A DNA stretch of 49,394 nucleotides from a virus. The position numbers and the translations under genes are program-made. The stretch is taken from positions 1 through 49,394 of IMG/VR virus record IMGVR_UViG_3300004463_000131. One strand, given 5' to 3'. Below the pieces are notes generated by a model. It had not been told where the DNA came from. It did no database searches and saw only the letters and a list, made by a program, of their open reading frames with translations. Shown one piece after another: positions 6,144-45,773 of the stretch (within the stretch, counting starts at the first letter, position 1; each line of letters opens with the position of its first letter).

Positions 6144-8089
6144 TGCCTAGTCTTTCGCTCAATATTACTCAGAATTCCGAACTCCATAAGCGGATTGTTA
6201 CCGGCATTATGGAGAGGATACAGGCGTCTAAGCGCGTCTTTGACGGGAAGTATAATCAATGGAAAAAGAACGAGGACGACGCTCAGGCATTCATGCCGGA
6301 GAAGGAAGTAGATGCGATAAGGAGAGGGAAGAGAGAAGGCGGGACTCCACAATATACAACTATTTTTGTCCCGTACAGCTATGGTATGCTGATGACCTCG
6401 CATACTTACTGGACGACAGTCTTTTTGAGTCGGTCCCCGGTGATCCAATTTGCGGGAAGGCATGGAGAAACAGAACAACAAGTACAAGCGCTAGAAGCAC
6501 TAATTAGCTATAATGTCGATGTCGGCCAGATGGTCATACCTTGGTATGTCTGGCTTTATGATGTTGGAAAGTATGGTGTAGGAGTTCTAGGAACTTATTG
6601 GGCAGAAGAATTTTCTCTGATTAGCTCTATTGAAGAAGTAGAGACTAAATATATGGGAATTATTCCCGGTCCTAAGAAGAGAGTTAAGGTAAATCGGAGA
6701 GTTAAGGGCTACGAGGGGAACAAAAACTATAATATTCGCCCCTATGACTTCTTTCCTGACCCTAGGGTTACTATAGCTAACTTCCAGAAGGGCGAATTCT
6801 GCGCTGTTTTCAGGCAAATTGGCTGGAATGAGATACTTAAGAGAGAAAGTCAAGGTTATTACACTAATCTAGACGCAATTCGTCCTGCTAAAGCCTTTAA
6901 TAACGACTCTGGAGAGCAAGGTTCTAGTCAAATTGAGCGCCCCGGCGAAAATATGGCTAATGGGCCGCAGTTTTTTGATCCTAAGAACTCTCAGAGTGGT
7001 AAAAAAGTCAAAGGAAACTCCACAGTCAGCGCTTATGAGTTCTACATCGACTTAATCCCGGAGGATTGGGGAGTTGGAAGTGGAAAACTGCCTGAAAAAT
7101 GGGTGTTTACAATTACTTCAGACTACCAAACAGTCTTTGGTGCAATGCCCCTTGGCGCAAACCATGATAAATTCCCCTTCAACGTGCTTACATATGAGCC
7201 GGAAGGCTATGGAATTGTGCCCAGAGGCCAGCCGGAGATACTTAAACCAGTCCAAGATACGGTGAATTGGCTTATTAACAGTCACTTCTACAGTGTTAGG
7301 AAGATTTTGAATGGTCAGTACATCGTTGATCCGAGTAGAGTTAACATATCTGACATGCTCGACCCCCAACACGGCGGGATCATTCGTCTTAAGCCCGCAG
7401 GTTATGGTAGTATTCCTTCCGAAACTGTCCAACAGCTAACAGCTATGGATGTTACTAGGACGCATCTCCAAGACATACAGATAATGTATGAAATGGGAAT
7501 GAGAGCGGTAGGTGTTAATGATCAGCTCATGGGTGTTTTACAAGGAAGTGGCCGCAAGACGGCTACTGAAGTCCGGTCTGCATCTACTTTCGGAATTAAC
7601 AGGCTTAAGACATGCGCGGAGTTCTTCTCGGCGATGGGCTTCGCACCTATGGCGCAAATGATGGTGCAGAATGCGCAGCAGTATTATTCTGCTGAGCTTA
7701 AGTTTAAGATAGTAGGAGACCTTGCGCAAAGTGCCGGGCCTGCGTTCATAGATGTTAATCCAGATATGATCACAGGTTTCTATGATTTTGTTCCAATTGA
7801 TGGAACTCTTCCAGTCGATAGGTTTGCTCAGGCTAATCTCTGGAAAGAAATTATGCTTGCTATTCAGAAGATGCCCCAGCTTACCATGCAATATGATATT
7901 GGTAAAATCTTTGCTTGGACAGCGCAGCTTGGAGGTCTTAAGAATATCAATCAGTTTAAGGTCCAAATGATGGATCCGATGCAGCTTGCTATGATGCAGC
8001 AGGCGGGGAATGTTGTTCCTATGGGTGGTATGGGCGGCTCTAACATGGCTGAGCCGAAACAACTTCCAATGATGGGAGCGACAGGATGA
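6143..8089 (+). CDS. Portal protein
   Basis: A 648-aa protein directly after TerL, as expected for the dodecameric head portal. It has an aromatic-rich N-terminal clip/stem region, the helical wing, and conserved-type stretches such as NIRPYDFFPDP and SGRKTATEVR, which is common in podoviral portals. The C-terminus is Met/Gln/Gly-rich. Size fits the large podovirus portals (P22/N4 class). It is translationally coupled on both sides (TAATG and ATGA). Confidence 0.88.
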   Translation: MPSLSLNITQNSELHKRIVTGIMERIQASKRVFDGKYNQWKKNEDDAQAFMPEKEVDAIRRGKREGGTPQYTTIFVPYSYGMLMTSHTYWTTVFLSRSPVIQFAGRHGETEQQVQALEALISYNVDVGQMVIPWYVWLYDVGKYGVGVLGTYWAEEFSLISSIEEVETKYMGIIPGPKKRVKVNRRVKGYEGNKNYNIRPYDFFPDPRVTIANFQKGEFCAVFRQIGWNEILKRESQGYYTNLDAIRPAKAFNNDSGEQGSSQIERPGENMANGPQFFDPKNSQSGKKVKGNSTVSAYEFYIDLIPEDWGVGSGKLPEKWVFTITSDYQTVFGAMPLGANHDKFPFNVLTYEPEGYGIVPRGQPEILKPVQDTVNWLINSHFYSVRKILNGQYIVDPSRVNISDMLDPQHGGIIRLKPAGYGSIPSETVQQLTAMDVTRTHLQDIQIMYEMGMRAVGVNDQLMGVLQGSGRKTATEVRSASTFGINRLKTCAEFFSAMGFAPMAQMMVQNAQQYYSAELKFKIVGDLAQSAGPAFIDVNPDMITGFYDFVPIDGTLPVDRFAQANLWKEIMLAIQKMPQLTMQYDIGKIFAWTAQLGGLKNINQFKVQMMDPMQLAMMQQAGNVVPMGGMGGSNMAEPKQLPMMGATG

Positions 8090-8424
8090 ATGATCTTTAT
8101 GAAAGGGAAGTCGATCTTAGCGAACTTGCTCAGGACCATGAGAAAGGTTTCGCTGAAGCCATCGCAATGAAGGCTAAAGTTAAGCGCTTGCAAGAGAATA
8201 GTGACTTTCGCTGGCTTACGGCAGTAATGCAAAAAAACCTAGATCAAAGAGTCAATGATTGCTTCCAGCAGACGAAGAACTTCGATCAGATGATTGCTAA
8301 TAATTCTGCTATGGCTGAAATTAGAGGCTTTCAAGCCGCTATGTTGTTTGCTCAATCCCTTTTGAACGGCGCAGAGCAGGCAATAGCAATGCATGAGCCG
8401 TTCATAACAAGAGAGGATGAGTAA
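8086..8424 (+). CDS. Small helical head-module protein
   Basis: A 112-aa, predicted all-helical protein between portal and scaffold, overlapping the portal stop as ATGA and the next gene as TAATG. No family is recognised. Its place suggests a minor head or assembly factor. Charged heptad-like sequence runs through residues 5-60. Confidence 0.7.
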   Translation: MNDLYEREVDLSELAQDHEKGFAEAIAMKAKVKRLQENSDFRWLTAVMQKNLDQRVNDCFQQTKNFDQMIANNSAMAEIRGFQAAMLFAQSLLNGAEQAIAMHEPFITREDE

Positions 8425-9455
8425 TGGCACGCGAGAATAGGGCAGAGAATAGGGCGAAAGCTAAGGAAGCTTCGACTGGTAGTAACCAGGGCGGAACTGA
8501 TCCTAATGAACTAGATCCTGAGAACGATGTTCCTTCTAAGCAAAGCTTTGACGACATTATCAACGCTCACGAAGGCGATGATGATGACGATACTGCGGAT
8601 ACTGGGCTTTCCAGTGAAGCAGAGGATAAAAAGGAAGAGGAAGAGGAAAACGCAGCGGGAAGTGAGAGCTTCGAAGCGACTCCCCCTGTTGTTAAAAAAG
8701 AAGGCGAAGAGGAAGCCAAGAAAACAGAAGCGGAAGCAGGTAAAGAAACCGATGGTAAGAAGGCTGAGGACGCAACAAGCGAAGCCAAAAAGCCGGAAGA
8801 TCAAAAGGTAGCTGAAACTCCTGCCGCACCCCCTGTTAGTGCCGAACCCACGTCTAAGGAGAAGGAAGAAACAGAGAGAGTTAAGCCGCTTTCTGACGAA
8901 GAAGCAACGAAGCTTTTTAGTGACTGGAGGAATGAGACTGAAAATCTCCTAGCCCAGCATCATTATAGGCTTAGTGAGAAGGATGTAGAGGAGTTTAATG
9001 AAAACCCTGCATCTTTCATCCCGAAGTATGCATCTCGAGTTTACCTCGACTGCATTAGTGCTTCTTTCCAGCAATTTGCCACCTATCTTCCTAGAATGGT
9101 GAACCAAGTTCTGGAAATGAATAGAAGCACAGAGGCGAAAGAAAACAAGTTCTTTGAAACTTGGAGTGAACTAAAGCCTCATAGGGAAACTGTTCTTCGT
9201 TTGGGGGCGGCTTATAGGGCTAGTAACCCTTCAGCGAGTGAAGATGATTTCATTCGGGAAGTTGGTGCTCAGGCAATGGTGGCTCTTAGGCTTACTCCTA
9301 ATGGTCATGCTAATCCTGCTCCTACTCCCGATCCGAAACCCTTCATTCCTGCCGCTCAATCTGCAACTCCTACTCCTCCCAAGCCACAATCAAACAATCC
9401 TTTCGAGCAGATGGCTTCGGACTTTAGTTTTGAAGATCTGCCCGATGATGCTTAG
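8424..9455 (+). CDS. Capsid scaffolding protein
   Basis: A 343-aa, highly acidic and Glu/Lys-rich protein with low-complexity stretches (DDDDDTAD, KKEEEEEN) over the first 150 residues. A helical C-terminal region rich in Ala and Arg follows, and the end is Pro-rich with an acidic tail. Immediately preceding the major capsid gene, this composition is typical of phage internal scaffolds that guide procapsid assembly and then leave. There is no sequence motif to prove it; position and composition carry the call. Confidence 0.72.
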   Translation: MARENRAENRAKAKEASTGSNQGGTDPNELDPENDVPSKQSFDDIINAHEGDDDDDTADTGLSSEAEDKKEEEEENAAGSESFEATPPVVKKEGEEEAKKTEAEAGKETDGKKAEDATSEAKKPEDQKVAETPAAPPVSAEPTSKEKEETERVKPLSDEEATKLFSDWRNETENLLAQHHYRLSEKDVEEFNENPASFIPKYASRVYLDCISASFQQFATYLPRMVNQVLEMNRSTEAKENKFFETWSELKPHRETVLRLGAAYRASNPSASEDDFIREVGAQAMVALRLTPNGHANPAPTPDPKPFIPAAQSATPTPPKPQSNNPFEQMASDFSFEDLPDDA

Positions 9456-32161: not shown

Positions 32162-34861
32162 TCACCAGTCGATCTTCTCTGTTTCACCCCAACTCTTTCG
32201 ACTAGCTTTAGCTGACCATTGGATTACTAAGGGGTCTTCATAAGGAACTTTTACCTTAGCGAGAGTATCTTTAATATCTTGTTGGATAGAGATAGCATAC
32301 TTGTATTGATACTGAATGACGAAGCTATCATGTACTTGAAGCAAAAATTGTATCTTAGGACTTAAGTCTGGATTATCTCTTAATGCCATAGCTCCCTTGT
32401 TAACATTTATCCCCACACTTGATTGAGGAACCCAAGCTAGGCCCTTTCTTTTTAGATCGTCGTTCACTCGGTCGAAATAAACAATGCGGTAACCAAACTT
32501 GTTGCGAACGGTTCTCCCTGTAACCGCGCCACACGAAGGGCAAAGTCTCTTGCCGTTTGTCATAGTATTGCAATTCCAGCATTGCAAACCGTTCAGCCAG
32601 AATTCTGTTCTTCTGTGCCATTTTCTAATTCCAGGGTGAGCACTAAACCATCTTTCTTGGAATTCTTCTGCTTTACTAAGTGTCCATTTAAGACGATGGC
32701 TGAGGGTTTGAGGTTCCGCGCCGTAGTTAGTTGCGTGAACGCCTTTCTTAACGCTATCATAAAAGCTTCCGGGGATGCCGTTGCCCGCTTTAATTTCGTC
32801 ATCTGTCATGTTCCTAGTTTCATGCTCGAAGAGAGTTCTAGTATTGACTAGATGTATCTTCTTGCCCGCTCGGAAAGCTGCTTTAAGATCTTCATCGTCA
32901 GCTTCCCACGCAACAATGGTTGCATCAGCACCGCTTTGATCGTACTCCGCGAGTTCATAGCCAACATCCGGCTCAAACGACTTTCGCATGTTAGGGAAGT
33001 TAAAAAGTCCTCTCTCTTTTCCAGATGGGATGTTCTGAAAATTCCCTCCACGTCCATAAATATTACTTCGTGACGCGAAACGAAATGTATCTGTCCCGGT
33101 GACAGCATATTCACACCTGAGCCTTCCATCTGAGTCTTCTTCTGTTTCGCCAAAGGTAGATTGGAAGACACCGACGCTTCTCCTAGTTTCAAGTCTCTCT
33201 ACAATGGGAGCTATTATAGGTTCCCGTTCGGCAAGTATGGGTAGTGCAGTTTTGTCGAGAGTGATCTTTTGCTGGCCCTTAGTTTTCCCAGCCTTGCTTT
33301 TAACAAGCACTGGTTTAATTCCCATAATATCGTGGAAGATTTCTTTCTGTTGCTTCGTAGAAGTGGGCCATTGGGTTTTCTTATAGACACCGGGGGCAAT
33401 TTTCTTCCCCTTAGTTTTAGGCTCAACTTGTTTTCTAATCTCTTCCGGTATGAGATTAAGCAATTGCTCGTCGAATTGAACAAGCGCTTCTGTAAGGTCT
33501 TTATTTGTTTTGTCTTTCTCAGCACGATTAACCTTAACTCCTCTTATCATCATTTCCAATGCGAAGTCATTAGCGATACGGATTTGGAAGTCGAACTGTT
33601 CTTGAAGATTAAAGGCTTTAATGAGTTCTCTTTCTCCATCAAATACTTCAAACGTCTTAACACAATCTCGGCAATTATACTGCCAGCCCGTAAGTTCGTC
33701 ACGGCCACCGACTTCATCAAAGTCTTTGCCTTCGTCTTTCCAGTAGTAGTAGTGGTCGCAGTATAGACTGGCACAGTTATAAAGTGCCTTTCGTTGAATG
33801 CCTTGAGCGAAAGATTGTTTATTGGTCTTGTCACTAGGATCACCTCCACCGGGCCAGAGAACATGCTGGCCTATCATTGTGTCAAAATAAATCCTAGGAC
33901 GGACGAAGAGTTGATCAACGATATATTGAACATCAAAGAGCAAATTGTGTCCAATAAGGCGCAGATTAGGATGGCTAAGAATGCGTCGTAGAAGATTAAC
34001 AATTTCAAACTCCTCTACTTCATTCCAATAGCCGTCTGGTCTGAGGCTGCTAACAAATGGTAAACATATAGCTTCACCGCGCCGGTGCGACAGTCCAACA
34101 CAAGAAATGATTTGTCTGGATATACTCGTTTCAAGGTCGAGAACAACTTCTCTCGGGCCGCTCTCGAGCGAGCTAAGAAGTTCAAGGAGATACTCAGTTG
34201 CTGTACTAAAGCTAGGCTGTATGATGAAGCTATAATTCGGTTCATTCCAATCTTTGCCATCTAGGATCTTCCTTGCTCTCACAGATAGATCATGCTTGAT
34301 CATATATCTCCAAGCAAATGATCCTTGGAGGACGGCGGCAGGGTGATATGTAGGGAGAAATGGTATCCGGTCAAAGTAGGAGTCAGTGAATAGCTGACTG
34401 CCGCGCCACTCGCTAATGCCGGTTGGAACTTTGTAGCCCGTATCATTGCCCGTGCGGTAGCAATTATCTGTAAGAGCCCAGAGTGAATAGGCGCCAAGTC
34501 CAATGATGAGTTTTGGTTTGATGGCTTGAATTTGATCCCGGAGAACCTGAAGTCCATCATATACAATTTGTTGTGGATAGAGAGTTTTATACGCGGGAAC
34601 TTGCTGTGCTTTGACAAAGGCGTTACCCCAAAAGAAATTCTTCATATCATTATCAGCAGGTCTGGCGCTGACAACATTTGTGAAGAAGACTTCACTTATG
34701 GGAATGTTGCTTTCAAAGAGGAGTTTTTCTAGCTCTTGGCCAGAAGCTCCAACAAAAGGCTGCTGACGAAAGGCTTCTTCCTTCCCCCAGCTTTCCCCTA
34801 CTATCATAATAGAACCAGAGCGATTACCTCTAGTTCCGTAAAATGTGCTAGGATTTAGCAT
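32162..34861 (-). CDS. DNA polymerase A with N-terminal uracil-DNA-glycosylase-like domain and 3'-5' exonuclease
   Basis: An 899-aa fusion from the ATG at 34861. Residues about 17-200 look like a UDG superfamily domain (VGESWGKEE, PFVGASGQEL, LPTYHPAAVLQ) without the iron-sulfur cysteines of family 4. A DnaQ-type exonuclease has D242/E244 (VLDLETS), D310 (GHNLLFD) and Y395/D399 (YNCRD). Family A polymerase motifs are D641 (EYDQSGAD), the O-helix KKGVHATNYG and H844-D845 (VHDS). A CxxC...CxxC zinc knuckle (C761, C764, C774, C777) is inserted after motif B. It is the replicative polymerase of the phage. Confidence 0.9.
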   Translation of the reverse strand: MLNPSTFYGTRGNRSGSIMIVGESWGKEEAFRQQPFVGASGQELEKLLFESNIPISEVFFTNVVSARPADNDMKNFFWGNAFVKAQQVPAYKTLYPQQIVYDGLQVLRDQIQAIKPKLIIGLGAYSLWALTDNCYRTGNDTGYKVPTGISEWRGSQLFTDSYFDRIPFLPTYHPAAVLQGSFAWRYMIKHDLSVRARKILDGKDWNEPNYSFIIQPSFSTATEYLLELLSSLESGPREVVLDLETSISRQIISCVGLSHRRGEAICLPFVSSLRPDGYWNEVEEFEIVNLLRRILSHPNLRLIGHNLLFDVQYIVDQLFVRPRIYFDTMIGQHVLWPGGGDPSDKTNKQSFAQGIQRKALYNCASLYCDHYYYWKDEGKDFDEVGGRDELTGWQYNCRDCVKTFEVFDGERELIKAFNLQEQFDFQIRIANDFALEMMIRGVKVNRAEKDKTNKDLTEALVQFDEQLLNLIPEEIRKQVEPKTKGKKIAPGVYKKTQWPTSTKQQKEIFHDIMGIKPVLVKSKAGKTKGQQKITLDKTALPILAEREPIIAPIVERLETRRSVGVFQSTFGETEEDSDGRLRCEYAVTGTDTFRFASRSNIYGRGGNFQNIPSGKERGLFNFPNMRKSFEPDVGYELAEYDQSGADATIVAWEADDEDLKAAFRAGKKIHLVNTRTLFEHETRNMTDDEIKAGNGIPGSFYDSVKKGVHATNYGAEPQTLSHRLKWTLSKAEEFQERWFSAHPGIRKWHRRTEFWLNGLQCWNCNTMTNGKRLCPSCGAVTGRTVRNKFGYRIVYFDRVNDDLKRKGLAWVPQSSVGINVNKGAMALRDNPDLSPKIQFLLQVHDSFVIQYQYKYAISIQQDIKDTLAKVKVPYEDPLVIQWSAKASRKSWGETEKIDW

Positions 34862-35093
34862 CCCACTTCTTATCCTTCCCCTTATGTTCAGCAATAATTT
34901 CAGGTATCTTGACTGACATATGATCCTTCCAGTCAGTCTTATTCTTCCCTACCATAGCTTCACTTAGGGGGAAGTTTTTATTCATAAAGGCTTCAATACT
35001 AGTTCTATCTCTACAGTTATTAAACTCCTTCTCTAAATCAGGACGAATAGTCCTAACTGTTTCCTTCAATTTCATCCACAGTTCCGCGCCCAT
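34848..35093 (-). CDS. Hypothetical protein upstream of polymerase
   Basis: An 81-aa charged helical protein (KLKETVRTIRPDLEKEFNN), GGAG 7 bases before the ATG. It overlaps the polymerase start by 14 bases and the next gene upstream by 41. No family recognised; being locked to the polymerase gene hints at a replication accessory. Confidence 0.65.
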   Translation of the reverse strand: MGAELWMKLKETVRTIRPDLEKEFNNCRDRTSIEAFMNKNFPLSEAMVGKNKTDWKDHMSVKIPEIIAEHKGKDKKWDAKS

Positions 35094-35677: not shown

Positions 35678-35698
35678 GTTAGTTCTCCAGAATAAAGC

Positions 35699-35738
35699 GG
35701 AGTGGGAGAAGCTGCTCCACAACAACCTCCCCCACTCC
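35699..35738. repeat. Inverted repeat in the gap before the ssDNA-binding-like gene
   Basis: GGAGTGGG (35699-35706) pairs perfectly with CCCACTCC (35731-35738) around a 24-nt loop. It lies in the untranslated interval 35678-35802 of the leftward operon, with no T tract. It may be an RNA processing or stability element separating the two halves of the operon. Confidence 0.5.
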
Positions 35739-35802
35739 TACACACGCTACGGGAGTATCAAGAGCAGTCTACTAGCAACTGCCCGCGTCAAACAGTGCGA
35801 GA

Positions 35803-36255
35803 CTATTTGCCCTTGGCGTAGCGTGTGATCCTTGCAAATGTCTCTCCAGCATTATCACCTTTGCCGGGAACGTGATCAACCATGATCTTTACTGGCCCGG
35901 CTCCGTTGAGCATGTTGAAGTTCCATTTCTGCTTAGCATCATTCTGCCCGACAGCTTCACGAAGCCGACCGAGCTTGATGTTCTTATTCGGCCCGAACTG
36001 GAGAGCGCCATTTTCAAAATCAAGAAAAATTCTATCCTGAATTTGAGGCTGCTCTACACCCATGACCTTCTTCAGTTCTTCATTCAACAAACCCCAAGTG
36101 ATAACTAGAATAGGCTTACCATCGAACTCATCCATGCTGAGTTCTTTGACAAAACCATCCCACTCACCCTTTGGGGTAAGAGTAAACTTCGTTTCGTTAG
36201 CTCCCTTAATCTCTGCGGAAAGGAAGACATTCGGATCGAAGGTAGATACGGCCAT
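35803..36255 (-). CDS. Possible ssDNA-binding-like replication protein
   Basis: A 150-aa beta-rich protein (KFTLTPKGEWDGFVKEL, GKPILVITWGLLNEEL, RIFLDFENGALQFG) with a flexible basic end (RYAKGK). Proteins of this size and look, near a RecA-like ATPase and polymerase, are often OB-fold ssDNA-binding proteins or DUF669-like. AGGAG lies 7 bases before the ATG. I cannot identify a diagnostic motif, so the role is tentative. Confidence 0.5.
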   Translation of the reverse strand: MAVSTFDPNVFLSAEIKGANETKFTLTPKGEWDGFVKELSMDEFDGKPILVITWGLLNEELKKVMGVEQPQIQDRIFLDFENGALQFGPNKNIKLGRLREAVGQNDAKQKWNFNMLNGAGPVKIMVDHVPGKGDNAGETFARITRYAKGK

Positions 36256-40780: not shown

Positions 40781-41007
40781 GTTGCACTTAGCCTCTTTAT
40801 TTCTCTGTCAATGTACCAAGCTGCTTTCTTCAAGTCTTCAATAGTCCTTCCCTTATCTGCCGCGCGCCAGATATACTTCATGGCATTTCCTAGATTGAAG
40901 TTCATATGCTCCGTAACCTGAATACACTCTATTCCACTAGGATGAGTTCTATAATGCTTCGGATTGATATTATCCGGCGCCTCAGTCATAGGGGTAGGTC
41001 TCGGCAT
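40777..41007 (-). CDS. DUF3310 family protein
   Basis: A 76-aa protein with the DUF3310 signature: NPKHYRTHPSGIECIQVTEH, then FNLGNAMKYIWRAADKGRT and DLKKAAWYIDREI. This family is widespread in phage nucleotide-metabolism and replication modules; its biochemical role is not settled. I start it at ATG 41007, with AAGGAG 10 bases upstream. An ATG at 40989 overlaps the upstream stop as ATGACTGA and is an alternative. Confidence 0.85.
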   Translation of the reverse strand: MPRPTPMTEAPDNINPKHYRTHPSGIECIQVTEHMNFNLGNAMKYIWRAADKGRTIEDLKKAAWYIDREIKRLSAT

Positions 41008-41164
41008 TAGCTTCTTTCTCCTTGAGGTATTTTCGAAGAAGATCATTCATAATAGTTGAAAAGTCTCCGAACCTAGAATGATTTTCTAGGAACTTCTCAA
41101 ACAATGCTTCTTCGAGGTAAATGGTTGTTCGCTTTTTAGCGACAATAGAACGTTTCTGTGGCAT
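40982..41164 (-). CDS. Ribbon-helix-helix DNA-binding protein
   Basis: A 60-aa protein: KKRTTIYLEEALFEKFLENH then FSTIMNDLLRKYLKEKE, the beta-strand plus two helices of Arc/CopG/MetJ-type regulators, working as a dimer. No ribosome site is seen before the ATG, which lies 16 bases beyond the base of a long inverted repeat (41180-41237). It may autoregulate through the structured upstream DNA or RNA. Confidence 0.75.
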   Translation of the reverse strand: MPQKRSIVAKKRTTIYLEEALFEKFLENHSRFGDFSTIMNDLLRKYLKEKEANAETYPYD

Positions 41165-41399
41165 GATGGGAAATAGAGCGAGGGGGAGGACAGCAAGTCA
41201 CCTAGGGGATAATTGGCCGCTTGTGCTACTCCCCCTCTAGCCAAGCTGACTATGGGGCAATCATGGTGACCGTCGAGGGGGCGTTTCAGTCACCATGTCT
41301 CAGCTTGGATTGTGTTCTCTTACCTTTCTCTAACTAGAGGAACTAGACGAAGTGGTTCTAGGGTAGCTCTAAGTTAGACGCGGTTGGAACAAAAAAGGA
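41165..41399 (-). ncRNA. Candidate structured RNA / inverted-repeat element, part 2
   Basis: No gene is seen. Two elements stand out. GAGGGGGAG (41180-41188) pairs with CTCCCCCTC (41229-41237). CCAAGCTGA (41241-41249) pairs with TCAGCTTGG (41300-41308) and encloses CATGGTGAC (41262-41270) pairing with GTCACCATG (41289-41297). All four arms are perfect 9-bp matches. Given the direction of flanking genes the RNA, if made, is probably leftward. A DNA-level role (operator, origin) is equally possible. Confidence 0.45.
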
Positions 41400-41627
41400 T
41401 CACTTAGAAACATAGCACTCATAGGTCGTCGCGATGGCGCTAGTGTTAGCAGTCCAAGCCTTTTTCTCAAGGGCTTCTTGCATCCTAAGACAGCGCTGGT
41501 AAGCTTGGCTCCAATAAACCTCATTCTCATTAGCAGCAACAATGGTGCCGAAAGAGAACTGTTGTCCAGTGGTGGGGCCACTAAGGAGTAAATAGACAAC
41601 AATGAGGGTGATTTTGTAAGTGATCAT
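41400..41627 (-). CDS. Small secreted protein within the structured locus
   Basis: A 75-aa protein from ATG 41627, GGAG 9 bases upstream. MITYKITLIVVYLLLSGPTTG is a signal peptide. The mature 50 residues are polar with two cysteines (QRCLRMQE and YECYVSK) that could form a disulfide. A longer frame to 41687 lacks a ribosome site. It stands isolated between two inverted-repeat regions and probably acts in the periplasm; function unknown. Confidence 0.68.
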   Translation of the reverse strand: MITYKITLIVVYLLLSGPTTGQQFSFGTIVAANENEVYWSQAYQRCLRMQEALEKKAWTANTSAIATTYECYVSK

Positions 41628-42229
41628 CTTGTCACTCTCCTGAATATCTCCTAGGGAATTAGCAGTCCTTACCCCTAGGCCGTCCAAGAAACTCAGTTAG
41701 CCTAAATGCCGCTAACCCTTGTCCTGGCTTAAGTTCCTTCATATCGCCCCCAAGACTTACGGGCGAAGTGCTGCGGAAGATTACTGCGGTCCTAGCAACT
41801 TTCACAGAAGAAGTTGATTACGCTCCTAATTAGTAGGTGCTTATGAGGCTGCCTACACTGTTACTAGCTTGCTGCGGGGGCAGGCCGCTATCACCATATC
41901 CCGCCTTGTCTTCATCCACTCCGGCTAATCACTTCCATCCTGATGAAGCATTCTTATTTCCATGCCAGTGAGAGCATTTGGATTGGATGCAGGGATATAT
42001 CCTCACCGTTGCCTTCCCTGAAAGACTTCTCCCACCGGCGGGGAAATAAGAATGAACTGACCGGAATTAGTAACAAGCGGGAGAGTGCCAATCAGAAAGG
42101 GAGGTTTTCTAACCTCTCTCCCGCTTGTCTTCGCTTCTCAGTACCAGCCCAGCACGTCGAAGCATTCGGATAAAATGGCATAATTTTCCCGAAATGTCAA
42201 GCCCAAAATGAAATTTTTTTCTGTTACTT
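41628..42229 (-). ncRNA. Candidate structured RNA / long leader, part 1
   Basis: About 600 bp without a gene. ACAAGCGGGAGAG (42073-42085) pairs perfectly with 42116-42128 and encloses a small AGGTT/AACCT hairpin. CATTCTTATTTCC (41949-41961) pairs perfectly with 42042-42054, enclosing a CAGGGA/TCCCTG stem. CCTAGGG (41650-41656) pairs with CCCTAGG (41673-41679) close to the ribosome site of the secreted protein. TCGCCC/GGGCGA also pairs near 41752-41765. Thirteen-base perfect stems repeated in one gene-free stretch suggest a folded RNA. Confidence 0.5.
42172..42200 (-). promoter_or_regulatory. Possible promoter of the structured locus
   Basis: Leftward TTGACA (42200-42195) followed after 17 bases by CATTTT (42177-42172). 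The -35 box and spacing equal those of the phage promoter family at 45.7-49.0 kb, but the -10 box is poor. It sits just upstream of the inverted repeats at 42073-42128, in the right place to transcribe them separately from the operon. Confidence 0.35.
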
Positions 42230-42436: not shown

Positions 42437-42736
42437 TTAAGCTACCTTCTTTCCCTTATATCCTTGCTCCTTTAGAGCCTTTTCTAGAGCACTTTCTAGC
42501 TCTGCATCAGGTCTGTGAGCATAGATAGTTTTTCCATTTGTAATGCTAATACTACAAGCCTCGGCTATTGGCAGTAGCCAGTGCTTTTCTTCTCTCATGG
42601 CTTTACGTAAACCATATAGTCTAGCTTTAAGCGCCAATGCAGCCTTATTAGACTTACATTCGAACTTAAACTCTCCCTTTTCGCTAACACACTTGAAGAT
42701 ATCAAGCAAGTAAGGCGAGAAGTTTTTCACTGACAT
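42437..42736 (-). CDS. 99-aa protein, paralogue candidate of 65-451
   Basis: SNKAALALKARLYGLRKAMR here matches NKAAIKYRLRLYNHRRS in the gene at 65-451, and the downstream SISITNGKTIYAHRPDAEL occupies the place of its TITLDGCTI stretch. The C-terminus is a charged helix (ELESALEKALKEQGYKGKK). AAGGA lies before the ATG. The NKAA-RLY pattern may be a DNA-binding helix; this is a guess. Confidence 0.65.
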   Translation of the reverse strand: MSVKNFSPYLLDIFKCVSEKGEFKFECKSNKAALALKARLYGLRKAMREEKHWLLPIAEACSISITNGKTIYAHRPDAELESALEKALKEQGYKGKKVA

Positions 42737-45324: not shown

Positions 45325-45341
45325 TGTTACTTTTACCTTCT

Positions 45342-45359
45342 GGTTTGACGTTACAAACC
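45342..45359. promoter_or_regulatory. Dyad operator candidate
   Basis: GGTTTG-ACGTTA-CAAACC is a perfect 6+6-bp inverted repeat in the leader of the leftward early operon, 18 bases upstream of its first gene. Its size and symmetry fit a Cro/XRE-type dimer site. A second dyad lies at 45377-45395. Confidence 0.5.
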
Positions 45360-45376
45360 CCAGCCTTTTTTAGTTG

Positions 45377-45395
45377 CCCCTCTTGACTTGAGGGG
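45377..45395. promoter_or_regulatory. Second dyad at the early promoter start site
   Basis: CCCCTC (45377-45382) and GAGGGG (45390-45395) flank a 7-base centre that contains a rightward TTGACT hexamer. It covers the predicted start of the leftward transcript (about 45398), an ideal place for a repressor or an early RNA hairpin. Confidence 0.45.
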
Positions 45396-45404
45396 TGCGC
45401 TTCT

Positions 45405-45433
45405 TATATAGGGCAGAGAGCCGGGAAAGGCAA
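45405..45433 (-). promoter_or_regulatory. Leftward early promoter
   Basis: Read leftward: TTGCCT (45433-45428), a 17-bp spacer and TATATA (45410-45405). It lies about 80 bases upstream of the first gene of the leftward operon. The palindromic TATATA may also serve a rightward promoter with TTGACT (45383-45388) and a 16-bp spacer, so the two may compete. Confidence 0.6.
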
Positions 45434-45459
45434 GGGATTTCTGAGATTTTAACCTATGT

Positions 45460-45660
45460 TAAAGAGGCACGCTAGGGTTGAGAGGCCCGGCAAAGGGCCA
45501 ACGCCCAGCGCGGCCAATGGTTCCCGGCCACTTGGATCGGCCCGATCTCGCCGTGCCCTTCCTAGCTCGCCCCTAGGGCCGCAGCGGCCCATATATAGAG
45601 AGTGCCCCGACCGCGCTCCCAGCCCAGCCCGACTCCATGCTGAAAGAGCGCTAAAAAGAA
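45460..45660. other. GC-rich non-coding island
   Basis: About 200 bases that are visibly much richer in G and C than the surroundings. They contain stacked dyads such as GGGCCGC-A-GCGGCCC (near 45577-45591) and GATCGG-CC-CGATC, and one TCGCCCCTAG copy (45567-45576). A frame crosses it (45456-45689) but has no ribosome site and Arg/Pro/Ala-rich shadow composition. It may be a replication origin, a transcription barrier or foreign DNA. Confidence 0.5.
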
Positions 45661-45685
45661 AGTTTCTAGTTAGTGCATTTTTCTC

Positions 45686-45714
45686 TTGACATTAATTCGC
45701 CCCCTCATTATCTT
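45686..45714 (+). promoter_or_regulatory. Rightward early promoter 1
   Basis: TTGACA (45686-45691), 17-bp spacer, TATCTT (45709-45714). It is one of five nearly identical promoters driving the rightward accessory genes. Predicted start near 45721, giving a leader of about 50 bases with an AAAGGA ribosome site. Confidence 0.8.
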
Positions 45715-45773
45715 CGAACCATCGGCAAGGAGCCGAACGGAAAATGAAACAGAAGTTAACAAAGGAAATTAAA

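Follow-up and report, generated by a model that had tools for sequence, protein, structure and literature searches.

Organization of the locus

The window analyzed here is a stretch of 49,394 nt, the full length of a 49-kb viral record, in which a gap of about 600 bp (41628-42229) lies inside a minus-strand operon that forms the early gene cluster. The features of this gap and of its neighborhood are collected in Table 1. None of the ORFs scanned in the gap has a family match, in agreement with a preliminary description of the region as gene-free, and the same applies to a possible 27-aa ORF at 41659-41742. That description also regarded the gap as the only large one, which is not the case: positions 41165-41396 form a 232-bp gap in the same operon that is also structured (z -4.8), and a further gap (45325-45743) separates divergent operons. 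Between these divergent early operons lies a GC-rich island (45450-45620; up to 68% GC vs. approximately 45% for the genome) with strong folding potential. Elsewhere in the window, residues 23-192 of the DNA polymerase gene product (32162-34894, minus strand) form a domain of the uracil-DNA glycosylase superfamily, fused N-terminal to exonuclease and family A polymerase domains.

Table 1. Features of the gap and its surroundings. L002 is the nearest relative found among viral contigs.
Feature	Position	Strand	Description
Gene of 60 aa at the right edge of the slot	40982..41164	-	76% identical in L002
Hairpin just 5′ of the next shared gene	41180..41237	-	9-bp GAGGGGGAG/CTCCCCCTC stem; z -2.5
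75-aa ORF, accessory cargo	41400..41627 (stop codon 41397-41399)	-	Hydrophobic, signal-like N-terminus
Remainder of the gap	41628..41916	-	z +0.8; no structural excess
H2	41949..42054	-	Perfect 13-bp stem, 2x2 internal loop, another 11-bp stem, branched loop
H1	42072..42129	-	14-bp lower stem, 1/4-nt internal loop, 9-bp upper stem, 7-nt loop
P1, small promoter-proximal stem	42129..42163	-	GCTTC/GAAGC; fold z -2.3
Promoter-like box	42171..42200	-	TTGACA, 17 nt, CATTTT; TG precedes the second hexamer (TG-N-CATTTT)

Structural excess and its strand

The two perfect 13-bp inverted repeats on which the preliminary description was built (42073-42085 with 42116-42128, and 41949-41961 with 42042-42054) are both present. 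At least one such repeat arose in only 0.05% (1 of 2,000) of the dinucleotide shuffles of 41628-42229 and two arose in none. The window contains six perfect repeats of at least 11 bp vs. 1.5 expected. H2 (z -5.7, none of 100 shuffles being equally stable) outscores every other hairpin in the window, and H1 reaches z -5.2 to -5.4 against shuffles (-5.2 for 42068-42133). Since the gap ranks 11th on the minus strand when simple fold energy per 120 nt is compared across the genome and is no extreme outlier, the claim of structure rests on these long perfect stems.

Folding of both strands, a check that had been suggested without naming a strand, gave z -3.3 for the minus strand vs. z -0.7 for the plus strand; minus-strand folding is superior overall and for each hairpin separately, and the structure was assigned to the minus strand from these energies. 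The proposal of structure throughout the 600 bp holds for approximately 210 nt (41949-42158, containing the small stem, H1, and H2) and fails for the other 290 nt, which fold no better than shuffles. Because of the z score of that remainder, its 5-7-bp hairpins, previously listed as part of the signal, correspond to chance expectation.

Rfam covariance models, also suggested earlier, provided no family for the gap: no match was obtained at the gathering threshold in the whole window, and only chance matches appeared around the gap down to E 10. No tRNA was detected in the whole window, and DNA similarity searches with the gap in phage and plasmid records revealed no relative.

Relatives and the promoter-like box

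Relatives were collected through the nearby exonuclease, using an alignment search that yielded 527 viral-contig stretches with a related exonuclease, from which 80 loci were retained. Only one of the 80, L002, resembles the gap in having a promoter-like box, a small stem, and H1. This is a 47-kb contig whose exonuclease is 75% identical, and comparison of the gap with the other retained exonuclease loci gave nothing above chance level. L004, whose exonuclease is 60% identical, has no such long hairpins 5′ of that gene. Neither a search for the exonuclease in genome contigs nor a single-sequence search of viral contigs with the neighboring protein (42437-42736) found a relative.

The TTGACA noted earlier is located on the minus strand at 42195-42200, which is indeed the upstream edge relative to the minus-strand operon, and the box to which it belongs occurs as a single copy in the window (one match with up to three mismatches allowed). 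Positions 42159-42218 share 79% identity over 61 nt with positions 7283-7343 of L002 (blastn), the sole DNA-level similarity in the gap; this part of L002 also contains a TTGACA-like box with 17-nt spacing, and GCTTC...GAAGC is found there at the same place as P1. Since a strict sigma-70 consensus scan missed the box, whose second hexamer is poor, promoter activity is inferred; we regard the box as a probable internal promoter. In agreement with a promoter at the corresponding spot, another locus (L005) has TTGACA-17-CATAAT immediately 5′ of a similarly placed small gene. Looser promoter patterns matched only L002 and sequences without the hairpins.

Hairpins are common in intergenic, near-start positions across this phage group. 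A significant hairpin was observed 3′ of the conserved gene 35803-36255 in 42 of 75 relatives vs. 6 of 75 inside the gene; these hairpins have a mean 5′-arm purine fraction of 0.67, T-rich tails are present in 44 of 75, and judged by such features most of them appear terminator-like. At this position the window itself has an 18-bp hairpin (35698-35740, minus strand, z -7.4), and a hairpin at the corresponding place recurs in most of the 75 relatives. Searches of Pfam, PHROG, and PDB with the product of the conserved gene gave no match; its identification as a single-strand-binding protein was dropped, as family or structure matches that would support it are lacking, and the gene is therefore left unnamed.

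Conservation of H1, and H2 in the window only

The counterpart of H1 is located at 7421-7495 of L002, and the gapped alignment runs on from the box into H1. In both hairpins the stem comprises 13-14 bp, its 5′ arm is rich in purines, and TTGGCAC lies on the 3′ side, where each fold leaves GGCA unpaired; in the window, this GGCA constitutes the 3′ side of the internal loop. Pairing is preserved: among 13 comparable pairs, six are identical, one shows a one-sided change, six show two-sided changes, and none is broken, the register having been set by hand because MAFFT applied to the isolated hairpins placed the arms differently. H1 is common to the window and one relative only, so that its covariation rests on two sequences, and the pair count is no better than the homology itself, since unrelated hairpins with purine-rich arms also yield apparently compensated differences. 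A composite of hairpin plus TGGCA occurs only in these two H1 hairpins within 2.76 Mb of loci (both strands); considering that shuffles yield approximately 0.4 such composites per data set and that the motif was selected after both sequences had been inspected, this is support for homology and no proof.

Exact-arm patterns of H1 had no match in viral contigs and four unrelated matches in genome contigs (approximately one expected by a rough estimate), with no context in common. The window H1 is followed by TACTAATTCC, which contains no T run, and no gene starts directly 3′ of it, whereas ACTTCTTTC follows the H1 of L002. A terminator scan reported just a weak site nested inside H1; its loop limit of 3-8 nt makes it blind to the 13-bp stem. 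A possible alternative fold has the 3′ arm of H1 weakly paired with 41917-41925. H2, sought in the relatives and by exact-arm pattern in viral contigs, was found in the window only.

Taken with the conserved box, these observations support a genuine structure at the RNA level, on the strand that is transcribed and beside a promoter-like element.

An accessory-gene slot with different cargo

The genes next to the box and H1 differ between the two relatives. Beyond H1, the window contains H2, 290 bases lacking structural excess, and the 75-aa ORF, which has a ribosome-binding-like AGGAG 5′ of its ATG and no match among protein families or phage records, whereas L002 has a 323-aa beta-helix ORF (7521-8492, PF13229), flanked by five hairpins in the early operon slot and likewise without a match in phage records. 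The hairpin that precedes the next shared gene has a position-matched counterpart in L002 (8737-8798, z -4.4), with two-sided changes in three of nine pairs and none broken. The shared gene itself, which forms the right boundary of the slot, encodes a 60-aa protein with no Pfam match that, judged by eye, resembles small DNA-binding proteins of the ribbon-helix-helix type.

Proposed role and comparison with known systems

The gap is best read as having a regulatory role. We lean toward a cis-acting module composed of a promoter and stem-loops, which would bound an accessory-gene slot and whose H1 and H2 would process, stabilize, or attenuate the mRNA. The internal promoter would start a transcript within the early operon, the 5′ portion of which would fold into the small stem followed by the two long hairpins. 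H1 and H2 would then probably act on their own mRNA as RNase III-type (double-strand-specific) processing sites, as stabilizers of the cut ends, or as partial terminators, and would delimit a slot whose cargo varies among related phages. Since H1 is not followed by a good T run, processing or stabilization is preferred to simple termination; more generally, the absence of T runs makes both hairpins resemble processing or stabilizing hairpins. Transcription from the box, cleavage, the processing role, and any benefit to the phage are what we infer from this arrangement. The earlier suggestion of an anti-termination element is a possible candidate role, while no support was found for a packaging RNA.

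In layout, the nearest known analogue is the promoter early stem-loop (PeSL) cassette of T4-type phages, reportedly treated in Arbiol 2010 and Comeau 2014. PeSLs recur as dispersed repeats whose stem-loops serve as terminators. As in a PeSL, a promoter-like box lies together with a stem-loop between genes of the early region, next to accessory genes that vary from one relative to another. However, PeSLs have several dispersed homologous copies, whereas the box here occurs once in the window, and the window H1 lacks the T run that is the usual terminator signature, the scan giving only the weak nested site. The PeSL promoter is strong and sigma-70-like; the box here fails the strict consensus scan but is conserved in L002. 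Because repeat copies are absent and the terminator signature is missing, the module is PeSL-like at most and is not classed as a PeSL, a kind of cassette described for T4-type phages (PMC4503421).

Another comparison concerns T7 R1.1, an RNase III substrate of 60 nt that lies between early genes 1.0 and 1.1 and whose 4/5-nt internal loop is asymmetric (PMC6121014). Like R1.1, H1 is approximately 60 nt long and has a long stem broken by an asymmetric internal loop in a position between genes (PMC6121014; PMC4858673); the internal loop is 1/4 in H1 vs. 4/5 in R1.1, and the likeness is one of form. According to its fold, H1 has the form of an RNase III signal (14 + 9 bp with a 1/4 loop), on what gene orientation suggests to be a single transcript.

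The gap had also been compared with the large phage RNAs GOLLD and ROOL, with which it shares being non-coding, structured, and carried by a phage, but this comparison is not borne out. Its structured part covers approximately 210 nt, in contrast to more than 800 nt in many GOLLD members, has no Rfam covariance-model match, and recurs only in its 5′ portion, in one of 80 loci. GOLLD and ROOL are often located near tRNA islands (PMC12286853), whereas the window is devoid of tRNAs, although such proximity is common, not universal, in these RNAs.

Alternative readings

The conserved promoter-like box immediately upstream, the presence of strong structures on one strand, and the long non-coding stretch would also suit a free-standing small RNA of approximately 210-250 nt (P1, H1, and H2) that starts at the box and acts on other RNAs or proteins. 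We consider this rather unlikely, given that a terminator-like end 3′ of H2 is absent, the only site listed by the scan being the weak one inside H1, that H2 is not conserved, that no Rfam family was found, and that viral contigs, plasmids, and phages provided no copies.

It is also unlikely that H1 serves as an intrinsic terminator or attenuator of upstream transcription with partial read-through. The group abounds in GC-rich stems that precede gene starts and have a purine-rich 5′ arm, many of them T-tailed, and what directly follows the H1 of L002 fits this idea; what follows the window H1 does not, its internal loop is atypical of a simple terminator, and the terminator scan, although blind to such a stem, did not report it.

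A distinctly unlikely extension of the free RNA is that P1, H1, and H2 represent a discrete phage RNA outside Rfam, conserved in its 5′ part (the box and H1, in which GGCA is unpaired) and rapidly changing in its 3′ part, which would act in trans early in infection.

The palindromes may alternatively function as DNA, for example as a replication origin, a packaging site, or the remnant of an inserted element. A stretch of approximately 170 nt (41917-42085) forms an imperfect palindrome (self-alignment E 5e-6), and the segment from H2 onward is missing in L002; against this, GC skew at 1-kb resolution has no turning point at the gap, the energies prefer one RNA strand, on which G-U pairs are usable, and the element is a single copy for which relatives were not found, all of which makes such a role very unlikely. 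Least credible of all is that gene turnover left H2 and the tail behind as filler without function and that the promoter alone matters: the tail without structural excess, the unshared H2, and the evident turnover of cargo would fit, but H1 and the second hairpin retain pairing between two phages and H2 is the strongest hairpin of the window.

Implications for the phage group

If the cis-acting promoter and stem-loop module is the right reading, a promoter and strong hairpins could keep exchangeable accessory genes apart from the core early operon in an uncharacterized phage group that is apparently common, a task so far described for T4-type phages, where another element performs it. The module would also offer a short hairpin for tests of RNA processing in infected cells.
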